Source: a virus
DNA length: 20,423 bases
Virus record (IMG/VR): IMGVR_UViG_3300010148_000166
Span: 1-20,423 of that record
Direction: 5' to 3' (one strand)
The notes under the pieces are model-generated. The model did not search any database, was not told the origin of the DNA, and saw only the letters and a program-made list of their open reading frames with translations. Below are positions 3,255 to 19,494 of this stretch, piece after piece. The position numbers were made by a program, and so were the translations under genes. Each line of letters starts with the position of its first letter. Position 1 is the stretch's first letter.

Positions 3255-3941
3255 CTAAAGTGCTATCGCCATTGCAATAGCAAATCCCGCTGTCGCTCCT
3301 GTTGATCCGCTTGACGCTGATGTCACCCTTCCATCAGCCGCCACAGTTATACTTGAGTTTGTATAGCTACCAGCCGAGACCCCTGAATTTGCGATATCCG
3401 TTGCGATTGACACGTTGCCTAAGTTTGTCATTGCAGTAGCACTGGCGGTCACATCCCCAGTTAGCGTAATCGTTGGACTCTTTTCTACGGTGACGCCACT
3501 CTCAATAGTGCCGCTAGACAACGTCAGACTAGAAAAAGCGTCTACCGCCGCTCCAGATCCATCCGTGTAGATGACCTTTGTTTCACCGTTAGGAATTGAC
3601 GGGTTGGTACCGGAACTGACGATTTCAATCGTCTGACTACCAGAGGTAGCGTTCTCAATAAACCAGATTTTAGAAACTGTGCTTGGAGCAAGCGTAACTG
3701 TCCGTGTGGCTGTCAGGCTTACGCCAGAGGTAATCTTCAAGTACATCGCACGGACACCGTCCGTTGCACCGTCCGCCATTGTAATCGTGCTGTTAGCATC
3801 ACTGGCTATTGCTTCTGTGCCAAAACCAAAGGCATCCGCAATAAGCTCAAGATTTGCGTTCGTCGTCTGGCCCCAGGTGCCTGACTGTTCGCCGTCAGCA
3901 ATCTCTTCAAGACGAAGATTATTTACATATGTACTCGCCAT
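3255..3941 (-). CDS. Tail-fibre-like structural protein (MASTYVNNLRLEEI family)
   Basis: Product of 228 residues with GAGG upstream, 7 bases after the previous stop. ASTYVNNLRLEEIADGEQSG followed by TWGQTTNANLELIADAF is an N-terminal signature I know from marine phage fibre-region proteins. A beta domain follows: VRAMYLKITSG, RTVTLAPSTVSKIWFIENAT, SQTIEIVSSGTNPSIPNGET, KVIYTDGSGAAVDAF. The C-terminal part has GNVSIATDIANSGVSAGSYT and SSITVAADGRVTSASSG, phrases typical of phage tail fibres. It ends in a small-residue hydrophobic stretch (AGFAIAMAIAL). It is likely a virion appendage or baseplate-adjacent protein; the precise site is unknown. Confidence 0.82.
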   Translation of the reverse strand: MASTYVNNLRLEEIADGEQSGTWGQTTNANLELIADAFGFGTEAIASDANSTITMADGATDGVRAMYLKITSGVSLTATRTVTLAPSTVSKIWFIENATSGSQTIEIVSSGTNPSIPNGETKVIYTDGSGAAVDAFSSLTLSSGTIESGVTVEKSPTITLTGDVTASATAMTNLGNVSIATDIANSGVSAGSYTNSSITVAADGRVTSASSGSTGATAGFAIAMAIAL

Positions 3942-3948
3942 TCATGCC

Positions 3949-6543
3949 TCACGCTGCTATGTCTTCCCAGTTGTCGCTAACCCCTGTGGTGATAGTGCTC
4001 CAAGATGGTGACTGACTTGGCGACACAGCACTCCAAGATGGTGACTGACTCGGAACAATCTGACTCCATACCAAGACAGACCCAACTTGGCCTGTTCCGA
4101 CTATACCAGTAGCTGGCACATTTGCCAATCCCGTGACAGTTACCGAACCTAATCCACTTTGGATGGCGTCTGAAGTAACCTGAACGTTTGCTGATGCAAG
4201 TGCAACAGCGGTTCCCTGCGATGCCGTCAGGCCAATGCCTGTAACGTCTATATTGTTGTTGGTAACTAGAGAAACTTCTCCAACAGATCCAGTGGCCTCT
4301 ATTCCTGTGGCAGGGATGTTGGCCTCGCCAACAACGGTAACTGAGTCAATCTCGCCAGTGGCCTCTGATCCCGTAACAACCACAGTTACGCCAATAACAG
4401 CTTCAGCGGTTCCTACCTGACCTGTAGCCTCTTCCCCTGTAACAGAAACGATAGCTTGAGCATCTACCGTCACAGAATCAATTTCGCCGGTTGCCTCTAG
4501 ACCGGTAACATCTATGTTGTTGTTGGTTACGGGGGTAACCGAACCGACCTCAGAGGTAGCCTCCAAACCAGTCTGAGGGACATTAGCATCCGCTGTAACA
4601 GTTTCATCACCAACTTCGCCTGTGGCTTCAGAACCAGTGACCGCTACATTCGCCGCCGCCACAACAGTTTCATCACCAACGGCAGAAGTAGCTTCTAGGC
4701 CGGTAACAGCAATATTGTTATTGCTTACAGGGACAACCGAACCAACCCCGCCGGTTGCCTCCTCGCCGGTCTGTACTAGGATCTGTTGAGTGGTAACGGT
4801 TTCGTTACCAACTTCGCCTGTAGCCTCTGATCCACTGACAGCGATCACAGCGGCAGCGTCTACGGTGACAGAGCCGACGCCAGAGCTGGCCTCTAGTCCG
4901 GTCTCAGGAACAACCGCACCAGCGTCTACGGTGACAGAGCCGACTCCACCCGTTCCTTCCACACCGGTGACGGCGACATTGAAGATTACTCTTACAGTAA
5001 CCGAGCCAACTTCACCGGTGCCTTCGGATCCGGTAACAGACAAGTTCTGTGCGGTGCTTAGAGTAACAGTGCCTACAGCGGAGGTAGCTTCGGATCCAGT
5101 AACGGAAACAACCGCAGCGGCAGAAGTCTGACCGCCAAAGTTACGAACACCAAAAAGATTGGATTCTCTGTCACTACTGTCGTCTTCTACTACAGCGCCG
5201 ACAGGCACCTCTGAAACAAAGCGCATACCAGCGGTGAGCGCGTAACTCTTTTTGTTTGGAGTAAGATTGCTATCCGTAGTCGTGCTTGAGATAAGCTGGA
5301 ACTTGGTCGGAAAGTCTGATCCAGTGTTGCTTGTCGCAAGCTGTATGGTGTCTACGAGTGTGCCGCTACTGTTGTAGACCTCAATGTTGCGGTCATTTGT
5401 ACCCGGCGCACCGATGAAGTTAACAAATTCAGCCGCCTCTATCAGCCTAAACTCGTGAGCAAAACAGCCCTCCGGTATAAAGCTGGTTTTTTCACCGCCG
5501 TCACTGTCCGCAATGCTAAATGCCGCAGAGGCTTTAGCCGTTTGATACCTATTACTTGGCCCAGTAAAGTCTGTGCCCCCTGCAAAATTAGTGTTGGTTG
5601 TGCTTATCGTGGAACTGTTACTGGTCCCATCACTAGCAAATCTTGTGAAGGTTTGTGCCGTCCCGCCGTATCCATCCACCAAAATCGCTGCTGCACTGCC
5701 AGATGCAAAGCCATAAAGGAAGTCGGTGCTTGCAGGGAACGCTGATCTGCTATCGCCAGACAAGCTAGTAGAGCGTGTCTTAAAGACAATAATCGGCAAG
5801 TCTGAAAATACGGTGTATTCAGGGTCAGAAGTATCGTCAGCGTAGGATTGCGTTGTGGTCGCGGTGCTACCGACACTCAAGGTTGTGGTTGATACACCGT
5901 CCTTGAATATCTCTACCGATGCCGTGCCATACAGGGCGCGCATCTGTAATACAAAACCCGTCCTTGTATTGCGGAAGCCAAACGAAGTGCCTGCCCAAGA
6001 GGTCGGCACACCAACAGTTTGGTTGTCCCCACTTTGAAGCGTAATCGGCTTGTTGGCCGATATGATCTTGTTTTCATAATCTGACGCGGAGACTGTAAGT
6101 GTGCCACCTGCCGAACTTATTGTGCCAAGAGATGACCCGTCAGCCGAGACTGTGGTGCTAGCCTCAAAGGCCATAACAGTTATGTTGGGATCATCGGTGT
6201 CTGTAGGTACGAAGTATTCGGCGTTGAGGGCGCCGCCTAGCTCTGGGTTGCCTTGAGCCGCAAATCCAACAACGGAAACTCCTGCATTCGCAACAACCGT
6301 TACGCTACCAACCGAACCAGTAGCTTCTAGACCGGTCTCAGAAACATTGGCAACGCCGGTTACGGTTACAGAACCTACGCCTGATGTGGCCTCTAAGCCA
6401 GTTTCTGGGACGTTAGCTTCTGCATCAACCGTTACGCTACCATTACTTGCGGTAGCCGAAACTCCAGACGCAACAACAGGTAAGGGGGAGTTCCACGCCC
6501 CTTCGGACCATGAACCCCGACCCCAACCTGTTATGTTAGCCAT
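3949..6543 (-). CDS. Large repeat-containing structural protein, probable tail fibre
   Basis: Product of 864 residues with AGGAG six bases before the ATG. The N-terminus, ITGWGRGSWSEGAWNSPLPV, is a Trp/Gly motif typical of this marine phage family. Residues 26-91 are three 22-residue repeats and 92-98 a broken fourth. Residues 99-481 are a non-repeat beta-rich insert (for example MRALYGTASVEIFKDGVSTT, FIPEGCFAHEFRLIEAAEFV). Residues 482-833 are 16 further repeats of exactly 22 residues, consensus TG.EATG.VG.VTV.A.ANV.V. The end carries two SPSQSPSW units and DNWEDIAA. Probably a long fibre or spike-like surface protein, with the insert as a candidate binding domain; this is inference. No enzymatic motif is seen. 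Confidence 0.85.
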   Translation of the reverse strand: MANITGWGRGSWSEGAWNSPLPVVASGVSATASNGSVTVDAEANVPETGLEATSGVGSVTVTGVANVSETGLEATGSVGSVTVVANAGVSVVGFAAQGNPELGGALNAEYFVPTDTDDPNITVMAFEASTTVSADGSSLGTISSAGGTLTVSASDYENKIISANKPITLQSGDNQTVGVPTSWAGTSFGFRNTRTGFVLQMRALYGTASVEIFKDGVSTTTLSVGSTATTTQSYADDTSDPEYTVFSDLPIIVFKTRSTSLSGDSRSAFPASTDFLYGFASGSAAAILVDGYGGTAQTFTRFASDGTSNSSTISTTNTNFAGGTDFTGPSNRYQTAKASAAFSIADSDGGEKTSFIPEGCFAHEFRLIEAAEFVNFIGAPGTNDRNIEVYNSSGTLVDTIQLATSNTGSDFPTKFQLISSTTTDSNLTPNKKSYALTAGMRFVSEVPVGAVVEDDSSDRESNLFGVRNFGGQTSAAAVVSVTGSEATSAVGTVTLSTAQNLSVTGSEGTGEVGSVTVRVIFNVAVTGVEGTGGVGSVTVDAGAVVPETGLEASSGVGSVTVDAAAVIAVSGSEATGEVGNETVTTQQILVQTGEEATGGVGSVVPVSNNNIAVTGLEATSAVGDETVVAAANVAVTGSEATGEVGDETVTADANVPQTGLEATSEVGSVTPVTNNNIDVTGLEATGEIDSVTVDAQAIVSVTGEEATGQVGTAEAVIGVTVVVTGSEATGEIDSVTVVGEANIPATGIEATGSVGEVSLVTNNNIDVTGIGLTASQGTAVALASANVQVTSDAIQSGLGSVTVTGLANVPATGIVGTGQVGSVLVWSQIVPSQSPSWSAVSPSQSPSWSTITTGVSDNWEDIAA
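3998..4050 (-). repeat. Short direct repeat coding SPSQSPSW
   Basis: A 20-base identical segment at 3998-4017 and 4031-4050, spaced 33 bases apart (11 codons), encodes the two SPSQSPSW units near the C-terminus of the 864-residue protein. Confidence 0.85.
4045..5100 (-). repeat. 16 tandem 66-base repeats (22-residue units)
   Basis: Sixteen consecutive units of exactly 22 codons, residues 482-833 of the 864-residue protein. Invariant or nearly so: Thr-Gly at 1-2, Ala-Thr at 5-6, Gly at 10, Val-Thr-Val near 12-14. Units 6, 9 and 13 share an Asn-Asn-Asn-Ile segment at positions 17-20, and other pairs share GDETV or EIDSVTV. This suggests block duplications on top of the single-unit array. Confidence 0.92.
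6250..6468 (-). repeat. N-terminal block of the same 66-base repeats
   Basis: Three full 22-codon units plus a degenerate seven-residue beginning of a fourth (VGFAAQG), residues 26-98 of the 864-residue protein. They match the C-terminal array (TGLEATSGVGSVTV) but are separated from it by 383 non-repeat residues. Confidence 0.88.
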
Positions 6544-6559
6544 AGGAGACTCCTACAGC

Positions 6560-7009
6560 TTACGCAATACGGATGATTGCGTTACTTGCGTCAGCCGTTG
6601 GGAACTGAATCGTAAAATCACCTGCCGTGGAGGTCTTGTCTCCACCAAAAGCAAGGATGATTACTGCATCAGATGTGCCCGATCCGCCACCACTGGTGGT
6701 GTTGTAGATCATCGCACCGTTTGCAGTGACAGTAGCCGTGCTAAATGTCAGGTTTGAAAAAGAGGTAATAGCTGTGGTGCCACCACCTGGGATACTCGGC
6801 GTGACGTTAGTCAACGTACCGCCACCTGCGCTATAACCAGTGCCAGACGCCTCATTTGAGGTAGAGTAGTCTGTTGTTGCTGCACCAAGAGATGCAGAAC
6901 TAGTAAACAGAGCAAGTTTGAACGTATGACCGCTCGAGTTGGTAAAGTCGTGCTTACCTTGAAGCAGTTCCTGCTTGAAGGATGTGCACATCGCTTGTGA
7001 AATAGCCAT
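6560..7009 (-). CDS. Conserved virion structural protein (MAISQAMCTSFKQELL family)
   Basis: Product of 149 residues, ATG immediately after the previous TAA, with AAGGAGG inside the upstream gene. N-terminal AISQAMCTSFKQELLQGKHD is followed by TFKLALFTSSASLGAATTDY and by EASGTGYSAGGGTLTNVTPS. The end is GDFTIQFPTADASNAIIRI. It is beta-rich with many Thr, Ser and Gly and no charged clusters. I know this family as a common structural protein in marine and other phages, and it is regularly placed beside the repeat-bearing fibre gene that follows. Its exact location in the particle is not known to me. Confidence 0.82.
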   Translation of the reverse strand: MAISQAMCTSFKQELLQGKHDFTNSSGHTFKLALFTSSASLGAATTDYSTSNEASGTGYSAGGGTLTNVTPSIPGGGTTAITSFSNLTFSTATVTANGAMIYNTTSGGGSGTSDAVIILAFGGDKTSTAGDFTIQFPTADASNAIIRIA

Positions 7010-8247: not shown

Positions 8248-8912
8248 TATACCCTCAAATACTGGATATCAGGCTGTAGCTTCAAGGATACTCGATCTTC
8301 GTCTTCATCAGCGGCTCGTTGAAACTCCTCTTCATAAACATTCTTCAAAAGCTGAACACGCTCTGGCGCCTTCTTCAGGGCGATGTAATACGCCATGCCG
8401 GCAGCTGCACAGGGTAAGAACCGGAAGGGCAACTCAACATTGTTCGTCAGCGCGTCCGCATCTTCTATCCGCCGGAGATAGTAGTATACGATCTGATCCG
8501 TGCTATTTTCCGGTGTCGGCCAAAGTGTGATCTGTGGCGTGATCTGCCGATTAAAGAAGAACTGAGAAGGGCGACCTTGTGTCGTTTTGTTAGGGATCGA
8601 CAGGTAATCGCCACGACTCAGTCGAGTCAAATCAAAGTCTGTATTACTGCGCCGCAGAACAACTTCAAGAAGATCTACAACATCTGCACCTAGAGTTTCA
8701 GTCGCTTGATTGTTTGTAAGCGTTATCGTTGCTTGCCTGACCGTCCAGAGGTTTACCCCTCTGTTCGCCCAATCTGCAAACATCAGATTCATAGAACGTC
8801 GCGCTGTTCGCGCATCATAACCAGTGCGAACCTCTAGTCCACAACGCTCATACGCCTCTTCTATGATGTCAGAAACATCAAGATCGAAATCTCTAGAGTT
8901 AGATGTCGCCAT
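8247..8912 (-). CDS. Head-tail connector / tail adaptor-like protein
   Basis: Product of 221 residues. A helical N-terminal bundle (DIIEEAYERCGLEVRTGYDA, ARRSMNLMFADWANRGVNLW) is followed by a beta region (QATITLTNNQATETL, VVDLLEVVLRRSNTDFDLTR, PQITLWPTPEN, QIVYYYLRRIEDA). A C-terminal helical part closes it (LPCAAAGMAYYIALKKAPER, LLKNVYEEEFQRAADEDEDR). This helix-beta-helix arrangement is that of adaptor proteins bound below the portal (P22 gp4 or T7 gp11 types). Marine phages often have exactly this protein followed by the next two genes. It is coupled to both neighbours by TAATG. Assignment to a precise adaptor family needs a profile search. Confidence 0.78.
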   Translation of the reverse strand: MATSNSRDFDLDVSDIIEEAYERCGLEVRTGYDARTARRSMNLMFADWANRGVNLWTVRQATITLTNNQATETLGADVVDLLEVVLRRSNTDFDLTRLSRGDYLSIPNKTTQGRPSQFFFNRQITPQITLWPTPENSTDQIVYYYLRRIEDADALTNNVELPFRFLPCAAAGMAYYIALKKAPERVQLLKNVYEEEFQRAADEDEDRVSLKLQPDIQYLRV

Positions 8913-9082
8913 TACCTAGACCTAACTTTGCCGCCCTTCTTCATCTTACGCATCTTCTTAACGGCACCGCCACCGCGCATCTTACGCATCTTCTTAACAG
9001 CGCCACCGCCGCGCATCTTCTTAACACTGCCGCCGCCCTTCATGCCGCGTCTTTTCTTCATTCTTTTCATTGCACCTGCCAT
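8912..9082 (-). CDS. 56-residue Gly/Lys/Met repeat micro-protein
   Basis: A 56-codon gene with AGGAG six bases before its ATG. It overlaps the previous gene by 16 bases and joins the next as TAATG. Product starts MAGAMKRMKKRRGMK and continues with near-repeats GGGSVKKMR, GGGAVKKMRKMR, GGGAVKKMRKMKK and GGKVRSR. It has 24 Lys/Arg, 13 Gly, 9 Met and no acidic residue. GGGxVKKMR proteins of this kind are scattered through marine phage structural modules; no function is known to me. A flexible polycation binding DNA or capsid interior is a reasonable inference. The opposite strand has longer open frames here, but these are artefacts of the simple repeat. Confidence 0.8.
   Translation of the reverse strand: MAGAMKRMKKRRGMKGGGSVKKMRGGGAVKKMRKMRGGGAVKKMRKMKKGGKVRSR
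8924..9037 (-). repeat. Degenerate tandem repeat coding GGGxVKKMR units
   Basis: Three copies of a Gly-Gly-Gly-x-Val-Lys-Lys-Met-Arg unit of 9 to 13 codons plus a shortened fourth. The DNA copies share near-identical GTTAAGAAGATGCG blocks. Unit lengths differ by insertion of an extra Lys-Met pair, suggesting slippage. Confidence 0.85.
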
Positions 9083-10033: not shown

Positions 10034-10266
10034 TAGAAGGTCTTAGCCTTGCGTTTAGAAGAGCCAGTCTTTCTTTTAGACTTCTTACTCTTTCCTCCAG
10101 TTCCATAGTTTTTGGCTCCCACCTTTCGGCATTTAGCAATCGCGCCCGAAGCATACGCCGATGGAAAAACCTTATATCTTGCTTTAACCTTTCGGTAACA
10201 TGCATCTTTTGGCACTTTAACCCCCTTAGTCGTTTGCTTGGCGATAGAGCTGCGCGAGATCGTCAT
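10033..10266 (-). CDS. Small basic protein with PSAYASGAIAKCRKVGAKNYG motif region
   Basis: Product of 77 residues, overlapping the upstream gene by 41 bases. The ATG at 10266 has GGAG seven bases before it. Residues 23-55 hold CYRKVKARYKVFPSAYASGA followed by IAKCRKVGAKNYG. This motif recurs in marine phages and large DNA viruses of aquatic habitats. The last 20 residues are a Lys/Ser/Arg tail (SKKSKRKTGSSKRKAK) resembling histone-like tails. About 24 of 77 residues are basic and one is acidic. Function is unknown; nucleic-acid binding or structural packing with DNA is inferred. The stop overlaps the next micro-gene as TAATG. Confidence 0.82.
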   Translation of the reverse strand: MTISRSSIAKQTTKGVKVPKDACYRKVKARYKVFPSAYASGAIAKCRKVGAKNYGTGGKSKKSKRKTGSSKRKAKTF

Positions 10267-17016: not shown

Positions 17017-19494
17017 TTATCCCTTACGCATCGCCAACTCACGCTGGGTCTGGATGCGTTCCCTGTTCACATCTGCCCTATCTTCCGCGATCTCCTCTTG
17101 GAGTTCGATTCGCGCTGCGTCAGTCATGGCTCTCTGCTGGAGCTTCTGGCGTTCCAAATCAAGTTCTGCCGAGTCCTGCGCCGCTCTGCGCTGGGACTCG
17201 TTAGCCTTGATAGCAAGCTCTTGCTGCCGGATTGCTACAAGAGGATCTTGTTGCCCTTCCGGCGGTGCAAGCATCTGAATGATTTCTTGGGTGAACTGTG
17301 CTTCTAGTTTTGCAACTTCGGCTTCAACCATGTCCTCACTCATCGCAGATGCTGCTTGCATTTGTTGTTGCGCCATCATGGGGTCTACTGCCCCCATCTG
17401 AGCGGCCAATGCCATTTGCTGCGCCTGCGCCTGCTGTTCTTGGACTTGAGCCATCACAGTCAAACGTGCCTTCATGGACACATGATCCTGAAGGTGCCCC
17501 ATGAATATAGCATAAATGTTAGGCGATGTAGAGACCAACGGCAACTTCATGAACATGATGTGTGCCATAATATGAGCGTCATGGTCCTGCTGTTGGAAGG
17601 CTGTCAGGAGTTCGCCCTGCATTCCCTTGGCATTCTCAATGCTGGGACTCGTAGGCTGCGGTTCCTTCTTGGCCGGCAGAATCTCATCAATGTTCTGCAC
17701 TTCTAGCGCCTGATACATACGCTTGTATGCTTCATGGAGATTGTGGATCTGCGGATTCGACTGCGCCAACTGTAGCTGTGTCTGCGCTAGCGTTACCCGT
17801 TGTGACATCGAGAAGATGTTGGGATCCGATACTGGAACCACATCTACGCGACCATCAAAGTCCTGTGCTTTGATCTCTGAAGGTGCTCCGGCTACCTCAT
17901 AAGGATACACAGGAGGGAGATTTTCTGCGAAGATTCTAGCGAGGAGCCGGAACTCTGTCTTCTGAGCATAATGCAGGCGCTTGTGAATGGCCGACATGAC
18001 CTTCATACCGCGCTCAAGCAATGCCACAGTTGTACCTACGGGCATGTCTCCACTTTGAGCGCCGTCACCAATCTGCTGATCGGCGATAGACACAAAGCGA
18101 CGACCACCCTCAATCAAAGAGGCCAGCAACTGCGCTAGCGTGCCTGACGGCTCTTTGAATGGAAGCGGAATGATAGAGTTGCGGATGTCGCCACCAGGCG
18201 CATCAATGTCTCTGAACTCACCAGGACTTAGCGGTTCGTCATCGTTACGGATGCGAATGCCCCGCGCCTTGAATCCAGACGGCAAGTTTGCCAGTGTGCC
18301 GGAATCAATCAACTGACGAAGGATGCTGGTCGTAGCGCGACCCAGCCCACCAATCATGTGGATCAAGCCGAAGCCATAGAAACCCAGACCGGGCAGGAAT
18401 TTGTAGTGTACGAAATACTGACGCTTACGCTTCAGCGAATCTTCTTGATCATAGTTACGAGTGATCGACAGAATCTCACCTGACCCGTGGTCAATCGTAA
18501 CGACATACGGCAGCTTGATCTCGGTGGGCTGACCATCGGGACCAACGTCTTCAAAACCCTCTAGATCCAGATCGACATGCATCTCCAAAACGGTGTGAAT
18601 GTCGTCCGTATACCCTTTGCTAATACCCTCAAGTTCATCAACCTTGTCGCGAACCGGATCGTCTACATTGTCATCTATCGACACCTCTACGTCCTTGTAG
18701 ATGCCTGCAACCTGCATCTTGCGAAGCTGGTTGCCATCCATACGCAGAACGTGCGTTACACGAGGTGCAGTGTTCAGATCGGTGGCGGAGTACGACACAA
18801 CCAGATCTTCCGAAGGCACAAATGCCGATACCGCACGAGCCTTGGTGGGATCAAAGTAAACCTTCTTGAAGGTAGAACCGGACAGCGGCAGATAGAACAG
18901 CATCTGATCCGTGTCAGGATCAAACTCCTCCATGACCTCAGTAACCTGATAGTTCATGAAGTTCTTCACGCGGCTGGCCTGCGCTTCTTTCTCCATGGTC
19001 TTGGAGCCAAGAACCTGCGTCTTCACAGGACCGCCGGCAGGCAGAAGTTCCTTATATGCTTGCGCTTGGAACTGCGTGACGGATTCGGCAATCAAAGGGT
19101 GTGTTACGCCAGATGCGCCCTCAAACGGCTGAGTGCGCTCCTGATACTTGATACCAAGAAGATCCAGACCCTTGGTATACGCCTGTTCCCAATCCTCGCG
19201 AGACTCCATGTCTTCTTCGTACAAACCACGAAGTTCGCTGGATATCTCACCCAAAACATCGTCATCAATGATCTCGGCGAGATTCGCCATGTGATCATAT
19301 TGCTCAGTCTCTACCTCAAGACCGTCAGGCACACCGCCCATGAGAGCCTGCACAATTGCGCTACCGTCAGGCTGCTGAACAACCTCGGCGCCTCCAGCAA
19401 AGTCTGGAGCCTGCGGGATCTCTACGTCCATACCCTGCGGCGCTTCAATGCCAGAGTCTGTCAAGCTGCCCATCGGGCGTGGAGGTAGTGCCAT
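17017..19494 (-). CDS. Portal protein, P22-like, large
   Basis: Dodecameric portal at the capsid vertex through which DNA is packaged and ejected. The product is 825 residues. The ATG at 19494 shares its A with the terminase TAA stop and has GGGAG eight bases upstream. A longer reading from 19524 would run 30 bases into terL and lacks such a site. The N-terminal core has GLYEEDMESREDWEQAY and a segment ending in PFEGASGVTHPLI, followed by a long alpha/beta core typical of P22-type portals. From about residue 680 to the end the protein is rich in Gln, Ala and Met, then becomes a charged coiled coil (ELDLERQKLQQR, EEIAEDRADVNRER), consistent with a barrel or helical C-terminus. Family placement rests on position directly after terL, length and sequence character. 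The exact Pfam portal clan would need a profile search. Confidence 0.92.
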   Translation of the reverse strand: MALPPRPMGSLTDSGIEAPQGMDVEIPQAPDFAGGAEVVQQPDGSAIVQALMGGVPDGLEVETEQYDHMANLAEIIDDDVLGEISSELRGLYEEDMESREDWEQAYTKGLDLLGIKYQERTQPFEGASGVTHPLIAESVTQFQAQAYKELLPAGGPVKTQVLGSKTMEKEAQASRVKNFMNYQVTEVMEEFDPDTDQMLFYLPLSGSTFKKVYFDPTKARAVSAFVPSEDLVVSYSATDLNTAPRVTHVLRMDGNQLRKMQVAGIYKDVEVSIDDNVDDPVRDKVDELEGISKGYTDDIHTVLEMHVDLDLEGFEDVGPDGQPTEIKLPYVVTIDHGSGEILSITRNYDQEDSLKRKRQYFVHYKFLPGLGFYGFGLIHMIGGLGRATTSILRQLIDSGTLANLPSGFKARGIRIRNDDEPLSPGEFRDIDAPGGDIRNSIIPLPFKEPSGTLAQLLASLIEGGRRFVSIADQQIGDGAQSGDMPVGTTVALLERGMKVMSAIHKRLHYAQKTEFRLLARIFAENLPPVYPYEVAGAPSEIKAQDFDGRVDVVPVSDPNIFSMSQRVTLAQTQLQLAQSNPQIHNLHEAYKRMYQALEVQNIDEILPAKKEPQPTSPSIENAKGMQGELLTAFQQQDHDAHIMAHIMFMKLPLVSTSPNIYAIFMGHLQDHVSMKARLTVMAQVQEQQAQAQQMALAAQMGAVDPMMAQQQMQAASAMSEDMVEAEVAKLEAQFTQEIIQMLAPPEGQQDPLVAIRQQELAIKANESQRRAAQDSAELDLERQKLQQRAMTDAARIELQEEIAEDRADVNRERIQTQRELAMRKG

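Follow-up and report, generated by a model that had tools for sequence, protein, structure and literature searches.

A 22-residue repeat protein of an HTVC023P-like phage with an exchangeable, remotely IgGFc_binding-like module

Introduction

The fibre shafts of adenoviruses and reoviruses are triple beta-spirals built of short beta repeats. The repeat array described here resembles them in its short repeats with a conserved glycine and alternating hydrophobic residues and in its variable repeat number, but differs from them in a unit length of 22 instead of about 15 residues and in the presence of large domains between the repeats. Among phages, the sharing of domains between otherwise unrelated structural proteins and the mosaicism of receptor-binding proteins are well established (Smug et al. 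2023, PMC10684548). In comparison with these mosaics, the acceptor in the present case is a 22-residue repeat array that can be extended, whose junctions are of one fixed type and can be occupied by several different modules. A phage tail fibre composed of 22-residue repeats was not found by literature search.

The closest described proteins are gp68 of Pelagibacter phage HTVC023P, gp68 of HTVC027P and WJZ48131.1 of DSL-LC04, which are annotated as hypothetical. They share 22-residue units and a Trp-rich C terminus with the protein analysed here, and those of HTVC027P and DSL-LC04 additionally have its Trp-rich GWG motifs, but with 226-376 aa and no module they differ from it in size and composition. 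Here, a stretch of viral DNA of 20,423 nt (IMG/VR record IMGVR_UViG_3300010148_000166; referred to as the window) was analysed, for which a first-pass annotation had described an exact 22-residue repeat array split by a non-repeat domain.

Materials and methods

Relatives were collected by a scan of viral sequences, in which 508 were obtained and 80 retained. A second scan used a pattern of the N-terminal anchor, which is unbiased toward the module, and yielded 61 distinct complete proteins. Repeat periodicity was controlled with 300 shuffles, the maximum being taken across all offsets. For the PF17517 (IgGFc_binding) profile, 25 Bacteroidota members were collected and aligned.

Results and discussion

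The capsid protein of the phage is 72% identical to that of HTVC023P and DNA related to the window also occurs on a 58-kb contig; on these grounds the phage is HTVC023P-like, and the gene order, too, places it with the HTVC023P type. The repeat gene is located between the phrog_644 gene and a gene for a short protein with a tail-fibre N-domain (Table 1). The same arrangement is present in the isolate HTVC027P (gp67/68/69), where the repeat protein is encoded directly upstream of the short tail gene as it is in HTVC023P, in which the putative tail gene gp69 follows immediately after gp68. The phrog_644 gene was present in 12 of 12 records tested, and in HTVC027P and DSL-LC04 it adjoins the repeat gene. 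The tail-fibre N-domain protein matches proteins of CRP-901/902, HTVC023P/027P and Planktothrix phages with tail, tail-fibre or tail-spike annotations. The repeat gene of the window thus lies among tail genes and beside a tail-fibre gene. For the whole 864-aa protein, no Pfam or PHROG family was found at E<=1e-3, and hence no curated tail-fibre family among the PHROGs. Since the repeat protein is missing in Roseobacter phage CRP-901, in which its two neighbour genes are adjacent, the repeat gene is accessory at best.

Table 1. Features of the repeat gene and its neighbours in the window.
Feature	Residues	Position	Strand	Evidence
Upstream structural-region gene, phrog_644		6560..7009	-	PHROG match
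Whole gene, repeat scaffold with inserted module	864 aa	3949..6543	-	ORF
N-terminal anchor, MANITGWGRGSWSEGAWNSPLP	1-22	6478..6543	-	MANITGWGR..W..W invariant in 28 insert-free relatives
Units 1-3, 22 aa each	23-88	6280..6477	-	offset-22 self-identity and unit profile
Interrupted half unit (VSVVGFAAQG)	89-98	6250..6279	-	equivalent '(V)xxTGxxARG' before the module in nearly all carriers
Inserted module, all-beta, IgGFc_binding-like	99-478	5110..6249	-	AlphaFold2, 49 viral loci, profile match to PF17517 members
Units 4-19, 16 units of exactly 22 aa	479-830	4054..5109	-	offset-22 self-identity and unit profile
Trp-rich C-terminal tail (..SQSPSWSAVSPSQSPSWSTITTGVSDNWEDIAA)	831-864	3952..4053	-	conserved in insert-free relatives and isolates
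Downstream short tail-fibre N-domain protein, phrog_31104		3255..3941	-	PHROG match

The protein starts with MANITGWGRG.W...W, which is conserved in relatives, and its anchor was predicted with low pLDDT. The unit consensus is N-V-x-V-T-G-x-E/A-A-T-G-x-V-G-S-V-T-V-x-A-x-A. Self-identity at offset 22 was 0.55 in the N part and 0.43 in the C part (shuffle maxima 0.37 and 0.20), and the periodicity of residues 99-481 was not above that of the shuffles. The spacing of the conserved glycine by the unit profile was 22, 22, 412 and then 15 times 22, corresponding to three units, the insert and 16 units, so that the exact array split by a non-repeat domain was borne out by self-identity and glycine spacing alike. 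With regard to the earlier statement that the insert breaks a unit after seven residues, the break within a unit was retained; the number depends on the start chosen for the unit, and if the unit is read as N-V-x-V-T-G-x-x-A-T-G, about 11 residues precede the break (between ...GVSVVGFAAQG and NPELGG). The confidently folded core spans about residues 106-470 and the exchanged DNA about positions 6267-5132 (residues 93-471), so at the C side the exchanged and folded module ends slightly before residue 481.

Among the relatives, L001 and L002 were identical, and L003 and L004 were 94% identical with unchanged layout. Three extra units were found in L005-L007, which are otherwise in register with the window; in L005 they sit between window units 5 and 6 as 66-bp tandem copies. 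The insert was absent from L029, which has 25 consecutive exact units and flanking DNA 91-94% identical to the window, and from the truncated L044; in both, the units at the insert site are 66-bp tandem copies. Insert and copy number are therefore not always the same in related phages, the case that would have refuted the first-pass annotation: the repeat number varies (L005-L007) and the insert can be absent (L029, L044). The proposal that a domain was inserted into a pre-existing repeat array agrees with the insert-free state of L029, L044 and most distant relatives.

Among the 61 proteins of the anchor scan, 55 were without a module (156-320 aa, 4-12 units) and six had modules, the window's own module being present in only one of them, on a contig identical to the window. 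The unit length of 22 is dominant in the family and not absolute, accounting for 562 of about 670 spacings by the unit profile and for 341 of 456 in the anchor-scan sample; spacings of 16, 20, 23 and 24 were also seen. The structural constraint on unit length postulated in the first-pass annotation was supported. Four insert-free MANITGWGR proteins (L119, L120, L121 and L122) are encoded on phage contigs in MAGs of Sphingobacteriales, Gammaproteobacteria, Maricaulis and Rhodobacteraceae; these contigs are possibly mis-binned, or they hint at the host range, and owing to the possible mis-binning they were left out of the host evidence.

The module was detected in 49 viral loci by module-only scans, and no match was obtained in cellular genomes or among annotated phages. 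In nearly all loci, a half unit ending with TGxxARG or a variant of it (e.g., VTGVEARG, VVGNEARG, VTGVSARG) is followed by the module, after which the array resumes, and the carriers differ in the number of preceding units and in the N-terminal anchor (MANITGWGRG, MFGHSPFSF, GWGRAGWG, MAATLNQANYGTG). The DNA similarity of L008, L014, L022, L032 and L088 to the window comprises the module only (75-87% over ~1.1 kb), and that of L010 lies almost only in the module. The module is thus a fragment common to otherwise unrelated proteins, as expected of a domain mosaic. Between the window and its near-sister L005, synonymous divergence was 0.71 in the module, 0.13 in the N units and 0.35 in the array, and the module was closer to that of the otherwise unalignable L010 (0.54) than to that of L005. 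Because of the module-only DNA matches and because the module's divergence from L005 exceeds that from L010, the module is regarded as a horizontally exchanged cassette in a repeat scaffold. It sits in other genes as well, since the module-bearing gene is located several kb from the phrog_644 gene in L022, L032, L088 and L096. Selection on module and array is purifying, dN/dS being 0.15-0.18 for the array and about 0.1 for the module; the value for the module ruled out that this domain is wholly variable and under positive selection.

Two further observations concern the tail regions of the carrier phages. DNA of L009, L011, L012 and L089 is 82-94% identical to positions 1-840 and 2380-2640 of the window at the far end of the tail region, and this segment adjoins or lies within S74-chaperone fibre genes; as these phages share the module and little else, it appears to be a second exchanged tail segment. 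The anchor motif GWGxGxWGxxxW / YGxGxYG recurs in unrelated tail proteins of carrier phages (L017 11616-13670, L024 12971-14815, L094 5274-7082, L118 and L150) and is also found between the units in HTVC027P gp68 and in DSL-LC04. It is possibly a shared assembly motif.

AlphaFold2 with 36 sequences gave a confident all-beta model for module residues ~106-470, most of this core having a pLDDT of about 79-94. Sequence searches with the window protein, the module or its profile did not reveal a Pfam, PHROGs or PDB family, the insert alone and the insert-free L029 had no credible PHROG match, and since no Foldseek match to the PDB was below 1e-3, no fold was assigned. Among predicted viral structures there was one standout match, FirrV-1-C4 of Feldmannia irregularis virus a (Q6XLX4; E=1.1e-15, probability 1.00, 403 aligned columns), a brown-alga virus protein with 15% identity to the module. 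IgGFc_binding was considered because the module has 'IsAdKPI'-type motifs. Profile-profile comparison with the PF17517 members resulted in a score of 46.9 (probability 83) over 50 columns and in a second alignment of 126 columns with a score of 40.6, the C-terminal half being unaligned; shuffled and reversed controls scored <=19. Single sequences of four other carriers scored 28-40 against the PF17517 profile, and the best of 80 unrelated phage ORFs reached 23.4. The bacterial members share the motif 'rViAsedsTtVxvNG...ItAdKPIxV' with the module, which is unlike them in that the coverage is partial and that it resides in phage proteins, inside a repeat scaffold. Because the Pfam IgGFc_binding model itself does not reach the module (0 of 26 module sequences at E<=1, all below the Pfam gathering cut-off; nothing at E<=0.01 in a six-frame search of the window), a remote relationship to PF17517, not membership, is likely. 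To our knowledge, IgGFc_binding has so far been known from cellular organisms, and the relationship would link a marine phage module to it. Self-profile alignment for an internal duplication of the module was not significant, although 'SD-x-PI' motifs recur.

Relatives of the scaffold have either no domain or one of several different domains between the repeats. In other phages, the same scaffold contains segments that are LamG-like (Laminin_G_3 E=0.0017) or CBM_4_9-like (E=1.7e-4), both short of the curated cut-off and the second only just, as well as a segment of 124 residues that matches PHROG tail fibres (phrog_30742 E=4e-35; phrog_677 E=5e-11). In the last of these, a C-x2-H-x4-M motif and a His upstream of it recall type 1 copper sites. 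This module of ~124 residues, with SGHP..(Y/F)Y(Q/Y)CTNHxxMG, occurs in L018 (5998-9000), L020, L195, L200, L203 and L214; with its possible type 1 copper (cupredoxin-like) ligand set, it would be a metal-binding domain on a marine phage tail.

Taken together, we consider it reasonably probable that the protein is an accessory tail or virion-surface fibre in an HTVC023P-type phage, and that its swappable domain probably binds glycans or the host. Receptor or glycan binding by the module is plausible in view of its resemblance to IgGFc_binding, the lectin/CBM-like sister modules and the neighbourhood of tail genes. For virion location, stalk geometry, binding and recombination route, we infer the following. 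The conserved N terminus (GWGRG..W) and the likewise conserved Trp-rich C-terminal tail would probably anchor or assemble the fibre, and the beta-rich 22-residue units would form a modular stalk, the length of which changes in steps of one 66-bp unit. Plugged between units, the beta module of ~370 residues, putatively a distant IgGFc_binding relative, would most likely bind a glycan or protein of the host surface or the extracellular space and thereby tune adsorption. Recombination in or beside the array may swap, add and remove modules, with the repeated DNA providing the homology.

An ordered beta shaft is suggested by the strict unit length and the residue pattern. AlphaFold2 predicted two strands per unit in the insert-free L033 (28 sequences, pLDDT 70-80), for which Foldseek against the PDB gave only non-significant matches and no shaft. 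Alternatively, the array could be a flexible, largely unfolded spacer that owes its strict length only to duplication by unequal crossing-over; the 66-bp units that were duplicated recently in L005, L029 and L044 and a pLDDT below 50 for the units flanking the module in a fragment of the window protein would fit this, as would the bias of AlphaFold2, which over-predicts beta-solenoids for repeat sequences (PMC11795689). However, Tandem Repeats Finder reported nothing in the array of the window, the units being too diverged in DNA, and yet all of them have 22 residues; strict length is therefore not just a matter of recent copying, and an artefact of recent DNA duplication was ruled out for this array. 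As the dominance of 22-residue spacings across the family, the alternating V/T/G beta pattern and the dN/dS of the array also argue against it, an unfolded spacer is regarded as quite improbable.

As to function, the protein might instead be a secreted or decoration protein, e.g., a capsid-bound fibre, with which virions attach to particles or to gels resembling mucus and not to one specific receptor of the host. The modules (IgGFc-like, LamG, CBM) would then be general carbohydrate stickers, in keeping with the types of module present in the scaffold and with both the whole gene and the module being optional, but the repeat gene adjoins tail-fibre genes in several genomes and one module family is common to PHROG tail fibres, which makes such a role rather unlikely. 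That the module is an enzyme, a depolymerase or carbohydrate esterase, and not a binder appears very unlikely: its long all-beta fold would be compatible with this and CE2_N profile matches were obtained in 11 of 26 members, but with a best E of 0.05 these are not significant, and the structural comparison with the PDB did not provide support either.

With regard to the preferred reading of an accessory fibre with a swappable domain, the general idea of fibre mosaics was already known; new are the scaffold family, the fixed type of junction, the variety of modules and the presence of an IgGFc-like domain. This is a case of a repeat array as acceptor for several interchangeable domains, and the fibre looks like a host-grabbing tool with rapidly exchangeable parts. 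Going further, it is possible rather than probable that the 22-residue array is a dedicated pegboard, in which 66-bp repeats serve as recombination landing sites for trading IgGFc-like, LamG, CBM and cupredoxin-like domains between otherwise unrelated marine phage tail proteins, including the first phage-borne IgGFc-type domain. If true, the cassettes would allow the virion to switch rapidly between the surfaces to which it adheres. Natural controls already exist in near-identical phages that either have or lack the module, or that differ in unit number.

Two minor observations were made outside the repeat gene. The window contains a small basic ORF (MAGAMKRMKKRRGMKGGGSVKKMRGGGAVKKMR...) with 27/36-bp tandem repeats at positions 8912-9082 on the (-) strand, and other Lys/Arg-rich small ORFs are present up to position 10266. 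On the contig of L033 (G163), the capsid match at positions 17696-18600 is in pieces with in-frame stops, reflecting an assembly error or a real disruption.
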